Assembly: GCA_937951615.1 (NCBI GenBank)
Contig: CALFBH010000026.1
Location: 1-64,000, forward strand
DNA length: 64,000 bases
Direction: 5' to 3'
Origin: an uncultured Saprospiraceae bacterium
GTDB lineage: Bacteria; Bacteroidota; Bacteroidia; Chitinophagales; Saprospiraceae
In this document: positions 16,079-54,461 of the stretch, piece after piece
How positions within the stretch are numbered: the first letter of the stretch is position 1
Layout of the letters: every line of letters begins with the position of its first letter
Program-made: the position numbers and the translations under genes
Notes under the pieces: model-generated
The model's input: the letters and a program-made list of their open reading frames with translations, nothing else
Database searches by the model: none
Told to the model about the DNA's origin: nothing

Positions 16079-16089
16079 GCGTTAATTTT

Positions 16090-16320
16090 GCCATGAATGC
16101 ACGAATTATAAACGAATGGTAACAGTTTAGTCGATGGTCGATGGTCGATGGTCGATGGTCGATGGTCGATGGTCGATGGTCGATGGTCGAGTGCCTTTCG
16201 GCACTCGACTATGTGCTCTTTATGCCCTGCCTATGGACTATGGACTATGGACTATGGACCATTGACCTAAACTGTTACAACAAATGAATTTTATTCGTCC
16301 GCAATTCGTGCATTCGTGGC
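16090..16320. repeat. Nested palindrome with GTCGATG heptads, between convergent genes
   Basis: From outside in: GCCATGAATGCACGAATT (16090-16107) pairs with 16303-16320 at 17 of 18 bases; GTAACAGTTTAG pairs with CTAAACTGTTAC; then about seven GTCGATG heptads on the left face CTATGGA heptads on the right around a GAGTGCC/GGCACTC hairpin. The whole could fold into one long stem and may stop transcription from both sides. Confidence 0.8.
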
Positions 16321-16333
16321 TATCTTTTTTCAC

Positions 16334-17480: not shown

Positions 17481-17550
17481 GAACACCGTACCGACGACTT
17501 TAGCCGTCGCAGGGAACATTGACGGCTAAAGTCGTCAGTACGGTGTTTTC
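17481..17550. repeat. REP-like inverted pair 1 (GACGGCTAAAGTCGTC family)
   Basis: The arm 17481-17508 (CCGACGACTTTAGCCGTC core) is mirrored at 17521-17550 after a 12-base loop. It lies 12 bases past the stop of the T9SS gene and before its terminator. Five such pairs occur in the window. Confidence 0.8.
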
Positions 17551-21327: not shown

Positions 21328-21394
21328 CCGTACTGACGACTTTAGCCGTCAATTAATTCAATATTCCCTGCGACGGCTAAAGTCGTCGGTACGG
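21328..21394. repeat. REP-like inverted pair 2
   Basis: CCGTACTGACGACTTTAGCC-GTC (21328-21350) is mirrored at 21372-21394 around a 21-base loop. It fills the gap upstream of aroK, nine bases from its start, so the leader of aroK is mostly repeat. Confidence 0.8.
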
Positions 21395-23839: not shown

Positions 23840-24155
23840 TAGGGCAAACGCATCAAATTAAAAAGCAACCTGAGTCGTCTGACGATTCAATTTATTCAGG
23901 AGTTCATCGTCCTGGAAATCATCATACGTGTGGATAAGCAAGCATCGTCAGCCGACTTTTTTTCTTCATTTTCCAAATTTAAATTTAATGCGGTGTTCAA
24001 AGTATGAAATAGTCGGCAGACGAAGGATTTGATTAAAATTAGTGGTTTGTCCCTGGAAACATGCTGTATTTTCAACTGAATTCGTCTGACGACAACGGAA
24101 TTTGCTCAACGATGCTTTGATAGAACACGACTAAAATTTTGATGCGTTTGCCCTA
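23840..24155. mobile_element. 316-bp TIR element with 8-bp target duplication (IS remnant or MITE)
   Basis: Perfect 18-bp terminal inverted repeats, TAGGGCAAACGCATCAAA (23840-23857) and its complement (24138-24155), are flanked on both sides by CTGAAAGC (23832-23839, 24156-24163). TIR plus an 8-bp duplication proves a transposition event; end sequence and duplication length resemble ISAs1-type elements, though this is from memory. Only a short frame near the left end, on the minus strand (TYDDFQDDELLNKLNRQ), looks coding. The interior holds two GTCGGC-x-GACGA hairpin modules, one being copy A below. Confidence 0.75.
23997..24120. repeat. GTCGGCAGACGAA hairpin element, copy A
   Basis: Outer inverted ends TCAAAGTATG/GATGCTTTGA enclose GTCGGCAGACGAA and TTCGTCTGACGAC, which pair at 12 of 13 positions. 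The same arrangement recurs at 36535 and 57890. This copy lies within the 316-bp TIR element. Confidence 0.75.
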
Positions 24156-24190: not shown

Positions 24191-24267
24191 TACCAATCAA
24201 CCAATCACCAATCACCAGTCACCAATCAACCAATCAACCAATCACCAATCACCAACCAACCAATCAC
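24191..24267. repeat. CCAATCA/CCAATCACC short tandem repeat
   Basis: An irregular array of AATCAACC and AATCACC units. On the minus strand its TGATTGG unit overlaps the stop codon of the SDR gene. Confidence 0.7.
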
Positions 24268-25068: not shown

Positions 25069-25172
25069 GTCCATAGTCGATAGTCCATAGTCGATGGCTG
25101 CTTTTAAGTATTCATTTTGCTTTGCAAAATGCGTGTAACCGCGCCATGGACTATCGACCATCGACTATGGAC
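25069..25172. repeat. Heptad palindrome with CATTTTGC hairpin centre
   Basis: GTCCATAGTCGATAGTCCAT-type heptads (25069-25098) are mirrored at 25143-25172. The centre contains CATTTTGCTTTGCAAAATG (25113-25131), a hairpin shared with the palindrome at 30785. It lies upstream of the SDR gene and 4 bases past the FG-GAP gene stop. Confidence 0.8.
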
Positions 25173-27402: not shown

Positions 27403-27459
27403 AGTCGATGGTCGATAGTCCATGGTCGATAGACAACCATCGACTGCGGACTATGGTCG
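27403..27459. repeat. Heptad palindrome between divergent genes
   Basis: AGTCGATGGTCGATAGTCCA faces CCATCGACTGCGGACTATGG. It lies in the leader of the FG-GAP gene. The stretch 27574-27640 also holds TTAATTACGAAT-type repeats before nhaC. Confidence 0.7.
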
Positions 27460-27643
27460 TAAATATTTAATAAAACGTTTGGTTTGTCTAATTTGTGCAA
27501 CAAAGATTTGATTTTTTATCAAAAGAATACTTTTTTTAACATTATAAAGATAAATTAGCACAAAATCAGTTTAATTACGAATGGATTAATTACGAATTAC
27601 GAATCAACTCAATTAACATAATAACTTAATCAACTCAATAAGA

Positions 27644-30765: not shown

Positions 30766-30784
30766 TGAAATTAAATCTTTTCAT

Positions 30785-30953
30785 AACAGTTTAGGTCGAT
30801 GGTCAATAGTCCATGGTCGATGGCTGTTTTTTAGTATTCAGGTCGTTTCAGCATTTCATTTTGCTTTGCAAAATGCGTGCAAAGCTTATAAAGCAGGAAT
30901 ATTACTGAATTGCAGCTATGGACTATCGACCATCGACTATGGACTAAACTGTT
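30785..30953. repeat. Heptad palindrome with AACAGTTTA ends
   Basis: Outer AACAGTTTA/TAAACTGTT ends, as in the 16090 element, then GGTCGATGG heptads mirrored by CCATCGAC heptads, with the CATTTTGCTTTGCAAAATG hairpin inside, as in the 25069 element. It thus mixes layers seen in two other palindromes. The rest of 30954-31242 is A+T-rich and empty. Confidence 0.8.
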
Positions 30954-31242
30954 ACACCTTTCCCACCTTTATACCATTTCAGACACTTTCTTACATTGTG
31001 TATAGTCGAATATAGACTGTTTCACTGCAATTTATAGCGATTTTAGCCTATTTTTCATCACATAATAAATAGCCCTACAAGCAATAATGTTGAATTTTAA
31101 TTTTAAAGAGAAAAATATTGGGAGAGGATAGTCTTTTTGGTGAATTAATTTCGTTAAAAGTAAATTTACAAACTATTATTCTGTTTTTAAGTTGTAAAAA
31201 ACTTAATTACAAAATTTTATTTTGATTTATTTAAAATAAAGC

Positions 31243-31989: not shown

Positions 31990-32015
31990 TATCGACCATC
32001 GACCATCGACTATCG
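31990..32015. repeat. Half heptad repeat merging with the tilS stop
   Basis: Tandem TATCGACCATCGACC units. On the minus strand tilS ends GGT CGA TAG inside the repeat, so the last two codons and stop are repeat sequence. Confidence 0.7.
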
Positions 32016-33341
32016 ACCGCTAAAGAGCCTGACGACCAAAACAGCTTTCGTCGTTTCCCGCACCTTAAACCGCTCATCCACCCGATGCCCAGCTAACCAG
32101 CAAATTTTGTCTGCTGACAGTAGAACAGCCGTTTGTTCTTTTTCAAATAAAGATACTTTTTGGTCAATCAAAAAATCACTCACTTTTTTATGCCGTCCAT
32201 TCATGCCCAATGGCTGAAAAACATCACCTGCCTCCCAGTGACGCAATTGAAGCGGAAAGACAAGTTGGTCTAAATCAAAACAGGCAATATGACTTGCTGT
32301 GTCTAGCACAAAATCCTGCTTATCTACGATTTGTAATTGCAAATGAAGCTGTCCAAAAGTAGCTTCACGATCTTCTTTAGCAAGGTAAACTGTGTCGATT
32401 TTCGGCTGACTCAGTTGTCGAATGAGCAGTGCATTTCTGTCTCTGAGCAATTCGTGGGTAGCGGACTGATAACGTGCGCCCGATAAGCCACCCAGAGACT
32501 TAAATATCTGCATAGTTTGATCCTGATTAAAACCAAAATCCTTGAGCAATTCGTATAAAACAGTCGCAGGAGCGGGGTAGGTGTGCAGCTTGGAAATATC
32601 TATGCGGACTTGTTCTTTTTCCTGTTTGAAAACAGTGGTTTTAATATGCTTTAACGCAAACTGATAAAGTGCCTCTGTGTCCTGAAAACGCTGAACGTTT
32701 TCCTGCATCGTGTTTTCGAGAGCAGGATTAATTTCTTTCAGTGTAGGAATAACATCTAAGCGAATCTTATTGCGGGAATATTTAGTTAGCGCATTGGAAG
32801 CATCTTCACACCAGCTCAGTTTTTGTGTATTGGCATAAGCCAAAATAGCTTCTTTTGTGGCAAACAATAAAGGACGAATGATATGCCCGCGCCGTACAGG
32901 AATGCCGTGCAAGCCACGAATGCCTGTACCTCTAGTTAGGTTGTAGAGCAGGGTCTCCGCAACATCGTTGAGGTGGTGAGCAGTGGCAATAGAAGCATAG
33001 GCTTCCTGCACCCGCAATTCCTCAAACCAGGCATAACGCAAATCCCGCGCAGCCACCTGAATAGAGAGTCCACGAGCCTCAGCAATTTTTTCGGTTTCAA
33101 ACTCAATGGAATGGAAAGCGACGCCGTATTTTTTAGCCAGTTCAGCCGAAAATTCCTTTTCCTCATCCGAAATTTTCCCACGAAGTTTAAAGTTACAATG
33201 TGCTATCGCAAAATCTAATCCTGCACCGTGGTACAAATCACACATGACCACAGAATCTACGCCACCGCTGACTGCGAGTAGGGGAGTGCCTTCGCTGTTT
33301 AGCTGATGTGTTTTGATATGTTGGATAAAGTGCTTTAACAT
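32010..33341 (-). CDS. tilS: tRNA(Ile)-lysidine synthetase
   Basis: 443 aa. N-type ATP pyrophosphatase with the PP-loop AVSGGVDS (residues 23-30), HHLNDVAET and RGTGIRGLHG motifs, a helical linker and the TilS C-terminal domain (FQPLGMNGRHKKVSDFLID). It modifies C34 of the AUA-reading tRNA-Ile to lysidine and is normally essential. It starts two bases after the stop of the membrane protein gene, so it may close the sulfatase-RseP-like-membrane gene run. Confidence 0.93.
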   Translation of the reverse strand: MLKHFIQHIKTHQLNSEGTPLLAVSGGVDSVVMCDLYHGAGLDFAIAHCNFKLRGKISDEEKEFSAELAKKYGVAFHSIEFETEKIAEARGLSIQVAARDLRYAWFEELRVQEAYASIATAHHLNDVAETLLYNLTRGTGIRGLHGIPVRRGHIIRPLLFATKEAILAYANTQKLSWCEDASNALTKYSRNKIRLDVIPTLKEINPALENTMQENVQRFQDTEALYQFALKHIKTTVFKQEKEQVRIDISKLHTYPAPATVLYELLKDFGFNQDQTMQIFKSLGGLSGARYQSATHELLRDRNALLIRQLSQPKIDTVYLAKEDREATFGQLHLQLQIVDKQDFVLDTASHIACFDLDQLVFPLQLRHWEAGDVFQPLGMNGRHKKVSDFLIDQKVSLFEKEQTAVLLSADKICWLAGHRVDERFKVRETTKAVLVVRLFSGR

Positions 33342-39537: not shown

Positions 39538-39607
39538 CGTACCGACGACTTTAGCCGTCGCGTGTGTTAGTTAATATGTTTTATGACGGCTAAAGTCGTC
39601 AGTACGG
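39538..39607. repeat. REP-like inverted pair 3
   Basis: Arms 39538-39559 and 39585-39607 with the GACGGCTAAAGTCGTC core. It fills the 91-base gap between the ClpB-like gene and the ROCO-TIR gene, which read the same way. Confidence 0.8.
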
Positions 39608-43185: not shown

Positions 43186-45822
43186 TTGAACAACAACGAA
43201 AATTATAAATTCAGAGACTTAAAAGTCTATTCTTCTACAGAATGGCTAGCCAAAAACAAGAAGCGTTATCGCCAGGTTTTTGAACGTTATGCCTGTACCT
43301 ATGTTTATGCCGAATTTTCTTTTTATAATAAGAAATATGACATAGAGGAGTGGGAGATTTCCATCACGCTGAAATGCTTTTCCAATAAGCGAGGTGGACC
43401 TAAAGAAATTTGCTCCTTGCCGATCAAACGAAAAGTGAGCAAACACGACCATGTCGTATATATACGAGAGGGGTGGGGCAATAAAAAAATCGGCGCGTTC
43501 TGGAAAAAAGGAGCTTATTACTGGGAGATTTGGGTGGAAGAGGAAAATATCCGCACCAAAGAATTTTACGTAGAGGATGCAGATAAGGAAATAGAAGAAA
43601 AAACGCCTTATATCAACATCAAATCCATCAAACTTTTTGAAGGTTCTGCACAGGATATTCTCAAAAGGCAGCGGATTTATTATAAAACATTCAGCCAGGA
43701 ACTGACTCGCTTTATTTGCTTAGAATTGATCCTCGAAAATCAGTTGTATGGCAAAGCCTGGCATGCAGAAGTCTTATTCAAACTCTTCAACGAATCTCGT
43801 GAACTTAAAGACGAGTTTATTCATCTGCAAAAAGTAGAAAAGAAAGAGGCAACGATCACGATAACAGCAAAATGGGGTTCAAGTGTCAAAGGCTCTTGGC
43901 GTACAGGACTGCATTATATCGACATCGTTTTCATGGATTCTATCTTAGCCACCATTCCTTTTGAAGTCAAAGAAGATCATGAAAAAGGCATTATAGGCGT
44001 TTTACTACCAGAACGTCAAAGCCTTATAGAGATAACAGCAGACAGCGAGGATCAGGAAAGTTTTGAAGATGTGATGGTCTATCTCGACAACCTCATCGGA
44101 CTCAGTGATATTAAACGGCAGGTACGCGAACATGCTCAATACCTCCAATTCCTGCAGTTGAGAAAAGAAAAAGGATTTGAAGAAAACGAGGAGGTCAATA
44201 TACATTCCGTATTCATTGGTAATCCTGGGACTGGAAAAACCACCGTCGCTAAGATGATGGGCAAACTGTATCGCAAAATGGGCTTGCTCACACGCGGGCA
44301 TGTCCATGAAGTGGATCGGGTGGATTTGATTGGAGAATATATTGGGCAAACCGCCCCAAAAGTAAAAGAAGCGATAGAGAAGGCTAGGGGAGGCGTACTG
44401 TTTATTGATGAAGCCTACGCACTAGCAAGAAGCAATGATGACAGCAAAGACTTCGGACGTGAAGTGATTGAAATACTTGTTAAAGAAATGTCGGATGGAG
44501 AAGGCGATATGGCCGTCATCGTAGCAGGATACCCAAAGGAGATGAAGCATTTCCTAGCATCAAATCCTGGCTTAAAATCCCGATTCAAAATATTCTTCAC
44601 CTTCAGTGATTATCTACCACAGGAGCTGACGCTTATCGCGGAATATGCCTGTACAAAGAAAAATGTTAGCCTGTCGAAAGCAGCAAAAGCCCGTATTGAC
44701 GAAATCATTATAGAAGCTTTCCGCGGACGAGATCGTACTTTTGGAAATGCCCGATTTGTTTATGACATTATCGAGCAGGCAAAAGTTAATCTTGGTTTGC
44801 GGGTGATGGCTTTAGAGGATCCTCGCGCTTTGAATAATGAAGAATTGTCTATTGTGGAATTGAAAGATGTGAAGCAGATTAAAGTCAAATCTGTCAAACA
44901 ATTACCGATCATTCCTGTTGATGAAGCCCTGCTGACAGAAGCCATGCTTGAGCTGAATCAGTTGATAGGCATGGAAAATGTCAAAAAAGAAATTGAGGAA
45001 TTGGTGCAGTTGGTGCGCTATTATCGAGAAACCAGCAAAAATGTCCTGAATAAATTTTTCCTACATACTGTATTTGTCGGAAATCCAGGGACTGGAAAAA
45101 CAACGGTTGCTCGTATTCTTACAAAAATATACAAAGCCCTCGGTGTGCTAGAACGTGGACACATGGTAGAAACAGACCGGCAGGGACTAGTGGCGGGTTA
45201 TGTCGGACAAACGGCACTGAAAACAGCCGAAAAAATAGAAGAATCCATGGGCGGCGTGCTGTTCATAGATGAAGCTTATGCACTTGGTGGACAAGGCGGC
45301 AGTATGGGCAATGATTTTGGAAGCGAAGCCATTCAGACGCTACTGAAACGCATGGAAGACAATCGGGGCGAATTTTTCGTCTTCGTAGCAGGTTATCCTG
45401 AAAACATGGACGCCTTCCTTAAAGCAAATCCTGGTCTGCGTTCTCGTTTCGATAAAGTCCTTAAATTTGAAGATTACTCACCAGCAGAATTGTTTGAAAT
45501 TGCCCTGATGATGTTTAAAGAAGAGGGCGTAGAGCCGGACAAAAAAGCATCAGAGCGCATGGAAGAATACCTGACCTTGCAATTTGACCTGAGAGATAAA
45601 TATTTTGGAAATGCCCGTACTGTACGTGGCATTATAACCGATGTGATTAAAAATCAAAACCTCCGATTATCGCAACTCACTAAGCGACAACGCACTGCTA
45701 AAGCACTGAAAACAATTACTTTTAAAGATGTAGATGTCATGTCTTTCGACAAAGAAGCAGATGTGATTTACACCAAGAAGTCTATTGGCTTTAAGCGGAG
45801 TAGGGGACAGGGAGCGGGGTAA
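43186..45822 (+). CDS. Tandem CbbX/SpoVK-like AAA+ ATPase with duplicated N-terminal domain
   Basis: 878 aa. The start is a TTG (43186-43188): a TGA lies nine codons upstream and no ATG occurs in either the leader or the early protein. Residues ~8-130 and ~145-265 look like two copies of one beta-rich domain. Two CbbX-type AAA+ modules follow: [30 protein letters not shown] and [32 protein letters not shown], each with an SRF Arg block. CbbX relatives act as hexameric remodelling motors. The pairing with the ClpB-like gene suggests a shared task; substrate unknown. Confidence 0.85.
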
Positions 45823-45828
45823 TTTTTA

Positions 45829-45950
45829 AATGATGAACGATGAATGATGAACTATGAATAATAAGAAATGATAAATATATTTTGCTCTGCAAAATACGTA
45901 AACATTCATCATTCATCATTCATAGTTCATCGTTCATCATTATTTCTCAT
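45829..45950. repeat. ATGATGAA-type palindrome between convergent genes
   Basis: AATGATGAACGATGAATGAT units are mirrored by ATTCATAGTTCATCGTTCAT around a TATTTTGCTCTGCAAAATA hairpin. It is the same design as the GTCGATG palindromes with another unit, and overlaps the stop of the 45947 gene. Confidence 0.75.
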
Positions 45951-46411: not shown

Positions 46412-46667
46412 GTTTAAATTTAATTTGTAAATGTGTAATAATTCGTAATTAAACCATTCGTAATTCGTAATTGAACCACCAAATACAAAGCCAATTTAAA
46501 ACCCTTAGCCTTACAATGTCGCATTTCCTGACAAAAACCGTATTTTGGCCGACGAAAGCACTATTAGTTGATTGGTTGATTGGTAAAATGGTTAATTAGC
46601 GGTCATATTTTGCTACGCAAAATGTAATCCTGGCAAACTACTCTACAACTTTACAGTTCCACTGAAA

Positions 46668-49880: not shown

Positions 49881-50015
49881 TAGTCGATGGTCGATAGTCC
49901 ATGGACGATGGATATACACGGCGGTTGAAACCCGCCGCTTTTGCGAACAATTACATGTGTTTCATGTCTTGTCACAAAACTATGGACCATCGACTATCGA
50001 CTATGGACTATGGAC
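49881..50015. repeat. Heptad palindrome with a CGGCGG hairpin centre
   Basis: TAGTCGATGGTCGATAGTCC and mirrored CTATCGACTATGGAC units enclose CGGCGG-TTGAAAC-CCGCCG. It starts seven bases after the glycosyltransferase stop and ends 17 bases before the methyltransferase start. Confidence 0.75.
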
Positions 50016-50914: not shown

Positions 50915-51319
50915 TTACAAATCTTCCAAAATCCTTTTTACATTACTATAATTCCTTTGAAATTCTACATAAGCCGGATAAGCATCGGTCAGTTCCTGCC
51001 AAAGAGATTTGGCTTGTTCAAAATACTCCTTTGCTTTTTGGCTGTCATTTTTATTCTTATAAAAAACACCAAGTTTAGCATAAGAGATGGCGAGTCCGTT
51101 TTTAAACTGTACATTATTCGGATAGGCATCATAGAGTTGTTTTCCAAGTTCAGAACGTTGTTCATAGAATTTCAAAGCCTTGTCTAATTCTCCAAGTGCG
51201 GCGTGGGTTTCCCCGAGTTTTTCGTAAGAGATGGCGAGTCCGTTTTTAAACTGTACATTATTCGGATAGGCATCATAGAGTTGTTCAAATAATACAGTTT
51301 CATCTTCATAGAATTTCAA
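50915..51319 (-). pseudogene. TPR end of a STAND gene that lost its NTPase core
   Basis: About 134 residues of TPR: units with QLYDAYPNNVQFKNGLAISY appear twice nearly identically, and the C-terminus (ELTDAYPAYVEFQRNYSNVK) matches the end of the STAND protein at 21451-23661. No sound start exists: the frame opens at a TTG where a REP repeat cuts into the first TPR unit. The matching N-terminal part is at 51429-51884. Compared with the paralogue about 375 residues, all of NB-ARC, are missing. Confidence 0.7.
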
Positions 51320-51322
51320 AAA

Positions 51323-51428
51323 ACGGTACTGACAACTTTAGCCGTCAAATAAATTTTATTGAAAATGAAATTCAAATACGCATAAAATTCTCTTTACTTT
51401 CTGCGACGGCTAAAGTCGTCGGTACGGT
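51323..51428. repeat. REP-like inverted pair 4, at the deletion junction
   Basis: Arms near 51323-51346 (one base off, GACAACTTTAGCC) and 51405-51427 with a 58-base A+T-rich loop. It occupies exactly the gap between the EAD gene stop and the truncated TPR frame, where an NB-ARC domain is expected. Confidence 0.8.
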
Positions 51429-51884
51429 TTAGGAAAAGTCTGCTTTGTCTATTTTTTCAATATTATAAATCTTCTCTGCGTTTTGTGTGATGGTTTTTGA
51501 GGTGTTGCTGACCTGATCTCCAATATGCACGTCTCCGCCAGCGGTGATATTGGAATTGGCGACGACATTTTTGCTGTTTTCTATAGACAAGACTGCCTGG
51601 TTGATTTCTTCCTGTATCTCCGGCTGTTCCTGTTGGCTTTTTAGTTCATCCAATAAGTCGAGTATGCCGATGCTGATTTGGTTTCTGGTGAGTGTTGCAT
51701 TTTCATGGCTGACTGTGCCGAGTCGTATCTGTTTCCGAATGTCTGCAAAACGTCCTGACTGGTGAATGACTTCGTCTAGTTTTGGGCTATTTTCGAGCAG
51801 CGTTTGAAGTTTGGAGAGGGCAGGAGGGAGGTCATCATTAGCGATAAGCTGTCTGATGTCTTTGATGGTTTTTTCAATGGTCAT
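51429..51884 (-). CDS. Effector-associated-domain (EAD) protein, N-terminal part of a gutted STAND gene
   Basis: 151 aa from the ATG at 51882-51884. Residues 1-75 are a death-like helical domain of the EAD11 type (IANDDLPPALSKLQTLLEN, IRKQIRLGTVSHENATLTRN, ILDLLDEL). A polar part with GGDVHIGDQV follows, then NIEKIDKADFS and TAA. That last motif is the pre-NB-ARC linker of the 21451 STAND protein (NVEKIDKATF), so the chain stops where the NTPase should begin; the stop touches a REP repeat. It may still act as a free adaptor that binds EAD partners, such as the ROCO protein at the left end. Confidence 0.65.
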   Translation of the reverse strand: MTIEKTIKDIRQLIANDDLPPALSKLQTLLENSPKLDEVIHQSGRFADIRKQIRLGTVSHENATLTRNQISIGILDLLDELKSQQEQPEIQEEINQAVLSIENSKNVVANSNITAGGDVHIGDQVSNTSKTITQNAEKIYNIEKIDKADFS

Positions 51885-51885
51885 G

Positions 51886-51993
51886 ATTTGGTGATTGGTA
51901 AATGGTAAATAGTGGCTTCTCAAATATAGAAATAAAATTTATTAATTACGAATTACGAATACACCAGTTACCAATCACCAATATACCAATCAC
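51886..51993. repeat. GATTGGT/ATTACGAATT short repeats
   Basis: GATTTGGTGATTGGTAAATG on one side and CCAATCACC units on the other, with TTAATTACGAATTACGAAT between. The CCAATCACC side overlaps the purB stop codon. Confidence 0.65.
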
Positions 51994-54283: not shown

Positions 54284-54300
54284 TGGTGTTGCCTCACTAA

Positions 54301-54441
54301 CCGTACTGACGACTTTAGCCGTCAAGTCAAATAGGCTCACCCACCTGCTGTCGCAGTTCACTTCGTCATAAGTCCACTGGACTTATGGTTTTCTTGCAGA
54401 AAACCGCACTACGTTCATGACGGCTAAAGTCGTCGGTACGG
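54301..54441. repeat. REP-like inverted pair 5 with internal palindromes
   Basis: Arms 54301-54323 and 54419-54441 enclose 95 bases that contain two further palindromes, CATAAGTCCACTGGACTTATG and GGTTTTC-TTGCA-GAAAACC. Confidence 0.8.
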
Positions 54442-54461
54442 TCACTATTCACACGTTCAAA

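Follow-up and report, generated by a model that had tools for sequence, protein, structure and literature searches.

The window, by which we mean the whole stretch of 64,000 nucleotides analysed here, carries the heptad GTCGATG 31 times, eight-fold over chance (shuffled mean 3.73), and all six loci for which the original prediction had cited GTCGATG/CATCGAC heptads do contain them, mostly as inverted arms. Tandem arrays were detected by TRF at 16130, 16231, 25069, 25144, 27403, 30916, 31991, 49881, 45829 and 24192, and inverted arm pairs lie at 16090/16293, 25069/25143, 30795/30918, 49881/49982, 45829/45908 and 51888/51963. The unit itself is degenerate, GTC[CG]AT[AG] and not GTCGATG alone, many arms consist of exactly four units, and the window elements are built of tandem 7-bp intergenic units, the property by which heptameric simple repeats are recognized.

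At the first locus, an element bounded by terminal repeats (16119-16278, with the repeats at 16119-16130 and 16267-16278), delimited by the terminal-repeat pattern and by a test of its 8-bp flanks and read here as a MITE copy, comprises an expanded plus-strand arm of eight perfect GTCGATG heptads (16130-16185; TRF and motif count), the hairpin core GTCGAGTGCC-TTTC-GGCACTCGAC (16186-16209; recurrence in the genome and folding) and an opposite arm of five units on the minus strand (16232-16266). It is flanked on the plus strand by AACGAATG (16111-16118) and AACAAATG (16279-16286), identical at seven of eight positions and read as its left and right target-site duplications. Around it lies a separate outer palindrome of the GCCACGAATGCACGAATT family, whose left arm (16090-16117, plus strand) is 82% complementary to its right arm (16293-16320, noted on the same strand). 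The second copy (30783-30955) has terminal repeats, four-heptad arms at 30795-30822 and 30917-30944 and the core palindrome CATTTTGC-NNN-GCAAAATG (30857-30875); its presumed target-site duplications, ATCTTTTC (30775-30782) and ACCTTTCC (30956-30963), both on the plus strand, are decayed and agree at six of eight positions. Folded as single-stranded RNA, 16085-16325 gives a z of -13.2 and 30785-30955 one of -8.1. The AACAGTTTA ends that had been announced for two loci are thus borne out at 16090 and 30785, the CATTTTGCTTTGCAAAATG centre is present at both 25113 and 30857, and the CGGCGG hairpin centre lies at 49919.

A body like that of the second copy, with four-heptad arms and a core at 25113-25131 and without terminal repeats, occupies 25069-25172, 3 nt past one stop codon and 13 nt ahead of the next start. 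Heptad arms around a CGGCGG-TTGAAAC-CCGCCG hairpin, likewise without terminal repeats, make up 49883-50015, and a short, bare and coreless heptad palindrome (27404-27457) is located upstream of two divergent genes. At 31990-32017 there is a lone four-heptad arm on the minus strand that spans the stop codon of a tilS-like ORF; the view that the six loci are palindromes and that all lie between genes therefore holds for the others and fails for this one, which is a single arm overlapping a gene end. Heptads of other sequence form the parallel element 45829-45941, in which ATGATGA-type arms enclose a variant (45878-45896) of the CATTTTGC-NNN-GCAAAATG core, a plus-strand ACCAATC array abutting a gene end (24192-24267), and inverted TTGGTRA heptads that occupy the gap between two tandem genes (51888-51988).

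Several further features of the window were noted in passing. The stretch 23976-24139 beside the ACCAATC array has matches of about 74-86% identity at many places in genome G004 and also in G003 and G005, and is probably another dispersed repeat. Another palindrome, formed by CCGTACTGACGACTTTAGCCGTC with its complement, is likewise dispersed; its loops measure 12 to 93 bp, and it occurs at 17482-17547, 21328-21394, 39538-39606, 54300-54442 and 51310-51441, with related copies in four congeners. Near-identical 17-bp AATTACGAATTACGAAT stretches lie between genes at 27588-27604, 46456-46472 and 51944-51960 as well as in six sampled loci (L012, L014, L016, L019, L023 and L026). Two window proteins have T9SS sorting domains, a hint at the Bacteroidota, and 43186-45822 encodes an AAA ATPase that scores above the curated cut-off of the model for stage V sporulation protein K in a Bacteroidota genome that is presumably non-sporulating.

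A genome-wide search, which had been proposed as a check, located heptad arrays throughout the genome to which the window belongs (G000, a 6.96-Mb draft in 142 contigs), with 280 perfect GTCGATG triplets versus none for the reversed control. Triplets of GTCSATR were detected in eight of the 60 genomes searched, namely in all six of the genus, in one of 31 other family members (G018) and in one of 23 of the order (G056). The arrays are hence neither confined to the window nor assignable to a named repeat family: none was found for these elements in the open-access literature, by sequence or by topic, and the window together with seven loci gave no Rfam 15 match above the gathering score. The reversed GTCSATR control was itself matched in two other genera (7 times in G014 and 11 times in G028), which shows that these genera have heptads of other sequence. 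Four consecutive GTCGATR units occur across many other phyla, in at least 108 stretches; by our own estimate, which takes the place of a control on that collection, a pattern of 28 bases would seldom be expected by chance. The matches listed (L028-L135) include GTCGATA or GTCGATG runs from Omnitrophota, Calidithermus, Brachyspira, Acidobacteria and others. An inverted heptad pair within 300 bp is present in six of the 108 other-phyla stretches listed, and neither the core nor the terminal repeat of the elements described here occurs in any of these 108, so that heptad runs there need not mean common descent.

Two families of bodies can be distinguished. Family I combines a perfect GTCGATG array with the hairpin GTCGAGTGCC-NNNN-GGCACTCGAC, a spacer and an opposite arm that usually has four heptads; its hairpin was found at 19 places of the genome with up to two mismatches and at 27 with up to three (reversed control, one). 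Family II consists of four-heptad arms, a GCTG/CAGC-like collar and the core CATTTTGC-NNN-GCAAAATG, which occurs at 119 places, compared with none for the reversed pattern. Exact matches to this core with its CG flank number 68 in G000, 12 in the sister species G001 and one in G013, the other 57 of the 60 genomes having none. In an alignment of 46 family II copies (29 from G000 and 17 from G001), conservation of the GTC and AT positions of the heptads amounts to 87-100% at 39 of 40 sites and to 76% at the remaining one, values somewhat inflated by the rule of two matching heptads per arm under which 13 of 59 copies were dropped; conservation is 47-93% at heptad position 4, 58-93% at position 7 and 91-100% in the core stem. 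Since the consensus arms are not mirrored at heptad position 4, the palindrome is imperfect there.

The claim that layers are common to loci in different combinations is supported far beyond the window. The tip of family I, present at 20 places in sampled G000 loci, has GTCGATG arms in 16 and stands next to TTCGATA-type heptads in four (L019, L027, L169 and L179), and the family II core is also found with ATGATGA-type arms (at 45829 in the window and, as a second case, at 16793 of L019) or with one arm swapped (L169). By eye, we also noticed TCCCGATA..TATCGGGA hairpins with six-base tandem arms (L013 at 3191, L019 at 17358, L176 at 13339 and L145 at 117), which agree with a smaller lag-6 signal in intergenic DNA. 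A heptad grammar common to all families was dropped as too permissive to test.

The boundaries of the AACAGTTTA elements are 12-bp terminal inverted repeats, GTAACAGTTTAG on the left and CTAAACTGTTAC on the right. Nine of the twelve positions of the GTAACAGTTTAG consensus agree in at least 46 of 54 ends, which were chosen by pattern and are not independent, and the end together with a heptad occurs at 59 places of the genome with up to three mismatches (reversed control, none). A first scan of 41 heptad elements yielded direct repeats longer than in any of 200 permutations. For 20 distinct end-bounded elements, the flanking 8-mers proved to be 68% identical versus 34% when permuted (z 8.7, 0 of 2000 permutations), with a maximum at 8 and small shoulders at 7 and 9 (z 2.8 and 2.3) when lengths from 2 to 16 were scanned. 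Among 20 newly fetched stretches, 15 lacking both ends were left out, and the remaining five held-out elements gave 80% identity versus 44% (14 of 2000 permutations). All loci taken together (24 elements, a set that overlaps with the 20, only the five being held out) gave 75% versus 36% (z 10.6, 0 of 1000). The signal peaked sharply at 8 bp without any shift; there were shoulders at 7 and 9 (z 3.3 and 3.1), and all other shifts tried gave identities of 0.31-0.44. Under a looser rule that admitted 27 pairs, two of which share one right end in L309, eight of eight bases were identical in five pairs, seven in four, six in nine, five in five, four in three and two in one; perfect duplications flank the copies in L257, L262, L278, L323 and L327.

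A target duplication of fixed length next to inverted ends is the signature of a DDE-type transposon. The end-bounded pairs listed measure 37-186 bp; they are short, have no coding capacity and exist in many dispersed copies, as is characteristic of MITEs. The 12-bp ends, the 8-bp duplications, the short gene-less body and the dispersal to many unrelated sites together fit a non-autonomous DNA transposon (MITE), and the statement that no defined element class fits accordingly does not hold for the two AACAGTTTA loci. At 18 heptad elements without terminal repeat (the class of 25069 and 49883), no duplication emerged at any of 900 offset pairs, and the MITE reading therefore covers only part of the finding: it is in part a new MITE family, and the modular sharing of layers between shells, which is what surprises most, has only a partial explanation. 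As a whole, the observations are probably best explained if the AACAGTTTA loci are MITE copies with a modular body, layered by insertion and bearing arrays expanded by slippage.

According to this explanation, the insertions would have been made by a cut-and-paste (DDE) transposase acting in trans. The body is modular: a hairpin core is enclosed by heptad arms, often of four GTC[CG]AT[AG] units, and these by a terminal shell. The same arms are found with two or more cores, and the same core lies between other heptad arms or within other shells. No transposase partner was found with the Y1 profile, the IS66 profile or the search for exact end pairs; the latter yielded none 0.7-3.5 kb apart in the draft assembly of 142 contigs. 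On contig C85, two ends face each other at a distance of 1.2 kb, and the gene enclosed by them was considered as a transposase and set aside, as it matches a methyltransferase domain; these ends (L276, 336-1515) belong to two separate end-bearing heptad elements that closely flank the methyltransferase-like gene, an arrangement that might, in principle, be mobile as a whole. In IS66, the elements begin with GTAAGCG and give rise to 8-bp repeats, as described in the relevant part of PMC11946415. The ends reported here start with GTAAC and are accompanied by duplications of the same length. IS66 comes nearest in its ends and duplications, yet PF03050 has no match in G000 (one in G001), and this counts against IS66 as the mobiliser.

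The original prediction had derived the nested order from stepwise growth around a hairpin. Where this can be tested, it is not supported. Bare copies of the outer palindrome of the 16090 locus (GCCACGAATGCACGAATT) with both arms exist in seven sampled loci (L013, L018, L023, L024, L172, L176 and L183), and when the MITE and one duplication are removed from 16090, the remainder folds as one hairpin with the junction at the edge of its loop. A separate, dispersed outer palindrome, a MITE in its loop and a 7/8 duplication suggest that 16090 grew inward, and on the simplest reading the outside is older than the inside in this one case. Layering may thus arise when a palindromic element inserts into the loop of a pre-existing palindrome. 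Among 24 end-bounded copies, only the one at 16119 exceeds shuffled flanks in this respect (14 of 18 pairs versus a shuffled maximum of 13); L259 and L166 (12/18) stay within them, and loop insertion was rejected as a general rule in G000.

Layering may also come about the other way, if an element takes up inner hairpins and then multiplies with them. Two G001 copies (L190 and L203) share a TCCCG...CGGGA hairpin within the third heptad, of which L204 contains a diverged relative, a related hairpin sits at that place in the G000 copy L257, and three other G001 copies (L233, L242 and L245) share another inner insert. These inserts lie on separate contigs and between unlike flanks, which makes it probable that the composites were multiplied once they had become nested. 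In L315 and L318, family II copies are cut or filled by further unrelated hairpins, which represents additional nesting.

Whether the elements could instead have grown in place, from arrays formed by slippage, mirrored by template switching at hairpins and extended outward as palindromes, has to be weighed against the same data. Sampled intergenic DNA of the genome has a period-7 signal (lags 7, 14 and 21) with 35 lag-7 runs of at least ten versus none in shuffled sequence, and an array of some heptad family is present in 43 of 232 gaps, the sampled loci having been chosen partly for GTCGATG and around known matches, so that such densities are not genome rates. At least four of five orthologous gaps in congeners, which were placed by extrapolation and are too diverged for a clean empty-site comparison, were seen by eye to contain other heptads, and a single arm is evidently expandable, the array length in sampled family I copies ranging from one to at least 18 perfect units. 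Of the 13 arrays with at least ten units, nine are cut off by a contig end, which makes their sampled lengths lower bounds; contigs end inside long GTCGATG arrays in L017, L021, L022, L025, L166-L168, L171, L172, L182 and L183, and these arrays evidently break the assembly. The period-7 signal, the arrays in gaps, the heptads of the congeners and the expandable arm speak for local growth, but complete bodies are repeated at dozens of loci unrelated to one another, the arms of one copy are not mirror images at heptad position 4, end-bounded copies are flanked by 8-bp duplications, and the outer layer at 16090 is a palindrome in its own right. Local growth is excluded as the sole cause for the end-bounded copies, and for the finding as a whole we regard it as unlikely. 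Within the MITE explanation, copy numbers suggest that one arm was later lengthened by slippage to give the long perfect GTCGATG arrays.

The arms and core of G000 recur in the sister species G001, where the terminal repeat plus heptad had no match; a search of G001-G005, G018 and G056 did not find this repeat in any of them. The G001 copies mostly lie inside a hairpin, CATGAGTCATCCCGAATTT..., that also exists bare: nine pairs of this hairpin have gaps of up to 50 bp, 15 have gaps of 131-243 bp, and nine single ends were counted. One copy (L198) is placed inside a different outer hairpin. The G001 outer hairpin was examined as a transposon end and rejected, since no duplication was apparent in 29 pairs (160 of 200 permutations reached or exceeded the observed value). 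The occurrence of the same arms and core within a duplication-free, terminator-like hairpin indicates that bodies also change shells. Some of the bare hairpins could have arisen by deletion from filled ones, and the change there could have gone in either direction. It is conceivable, though we consider it rather improbable, that we are dealing with a modular mobile palindrome whose body passes between unrelated shells and is a MITE in one species and part of a terminator-like hairpin in its sister.

Another proposal is that the palindromes are kept as transcription terminators or mRNA 3'-end hairpins that end or protect transcripts. The 45 outer hairpins of G001 lie in 26 convergent, 18 tandem and one divergent gap, a distribution that departs from the 72 convergent, 224 tandem and 83 divergent of 379 gaps in G000 (p 9e-9 for convergent and 2e-4 for divergent), although these base rates are those of G000 and the genes stem from a simple ORF rule; by eye, some of the bare G001 hairpins resemble intrinsic terminators and finish with a T run. 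For the G000 elements, 13 of 34 were convergent (p 0.007; 12 of 33, p 0.015, when the split L024 is counted once), and 13 of 17 in tandem gaps lay nearer to the upstream stop (p 0.025). These counts exclude 14 of 48 clusters (13 at stretch ends and one inside an ORF) and rest on gene positions from a greedy ORF rule by which some context is visibly off (left distances at 27404 and at 5567 of L176). On the other hand, four of 34 were called divergent (p 0.11), the window elements between 15900 and 32200 have no T run: of 19 terminator-like matches in that part, one falls in an element, with a tail that is not T-rich. A placement near stops is, moreover, equally expected from selection against promoter damage. 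The simplest reading of where the G000 elements lie is tolerance near gene ends, and a role in transcription as the reason for their maintenance appears doubtful, more so than local growth. Under the MITE reading, their function for the host would probably be nil or incidental, copies being tolerated near gene ends. REP/REPIN-type palindromes spread by a RAYT (Y1, HUH) transposase would also be short, intergenic and present in more than 100 copies, and G000 has four Y1 matches (PF01797), but G001 carries many copies of the same body with no Y1 match, which led us to reject RAYT as the mobiliser, and the Y1 mechanism is not expected to give target duplications of fixed length, so this origin is very improbable.

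BrickBuilt, a MITE of Porphyromonas gingivalis, is similarly short, intergenic and dispersed, has inverted ends and tandem repeats and also comes from the Bacteroidota (PMC4596501). As far as its description there extends, its tandem units are of 23 bp (PMC4596501), whereas here a 7-bp unit is mirrored in both arms around an interchangeable core and a fixed 8-bp duplication was measured; MITEAba12 may be named as another MITE example. Heptameric repeats have been described as TAACTGA (MacGregor 2015, PMC4679880) and as GGGAATC and GGGGA(C/T)T, the latter study reporting mostly four units in Xanthomonas and showing one inverted pair (Rehm 2015, PMC4692102). They resemble our elements in being seven-base, largely intergenic and scattered in phylogeny with few degenerate positions, and differ in that the passages concerned describe them simply as repeats and mention no terminal repeats, no target duplications and no interchangeable core (PMC4679880, PMC4692102). 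IS1397, IS621 and ISRm22 target palindromes, ISRm22 at the axis (Tobes and Pareja 2006, PMC1525189). The 16090 locus, as far as that account allows the comparison, is likewise an insertion into a repeated palindrome and, as with ISRm22, near its axis, but what was inserted is a gene-less palindrome, and loop insertion concerns one of 24 copies. The palindromic, intergenic REP/BIME and REPIN elements that accompany RAYT reach similar numbers, above 100 copies; they are set apart by the 8-bp duplications found here and by a sister genome with many bodies and no Y1 match. BOX elements of pneumococcus are modular repeats as well, with a variable copy number of the inner module; to our knowledge, they have neither mirrored heptads nor an exchange of outer shells.

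These puzzling intergenic palindromes thereby become testable, since some are transposons whose defined ends allow a search for empty sites, for a transposase and for the times of insertion. With arms and cores shared between shells and five heptad bases out of seven conserved, the elements offer a concrete case for studying why repeats of seven bases recur in bacteria, a question raised in 2007 and, in the portions of the literature considered, explained only by hypotheses (PMC4679880, PMC4692102). If the body does pass between shells, there would have to be a second route that leaves no duplication. Insertion directed by hairpins would be one example and gene conversion between hairpins at the replication fork another, and such a route would also spread heptads and bear on why seven-base repeats are common in bacteria.
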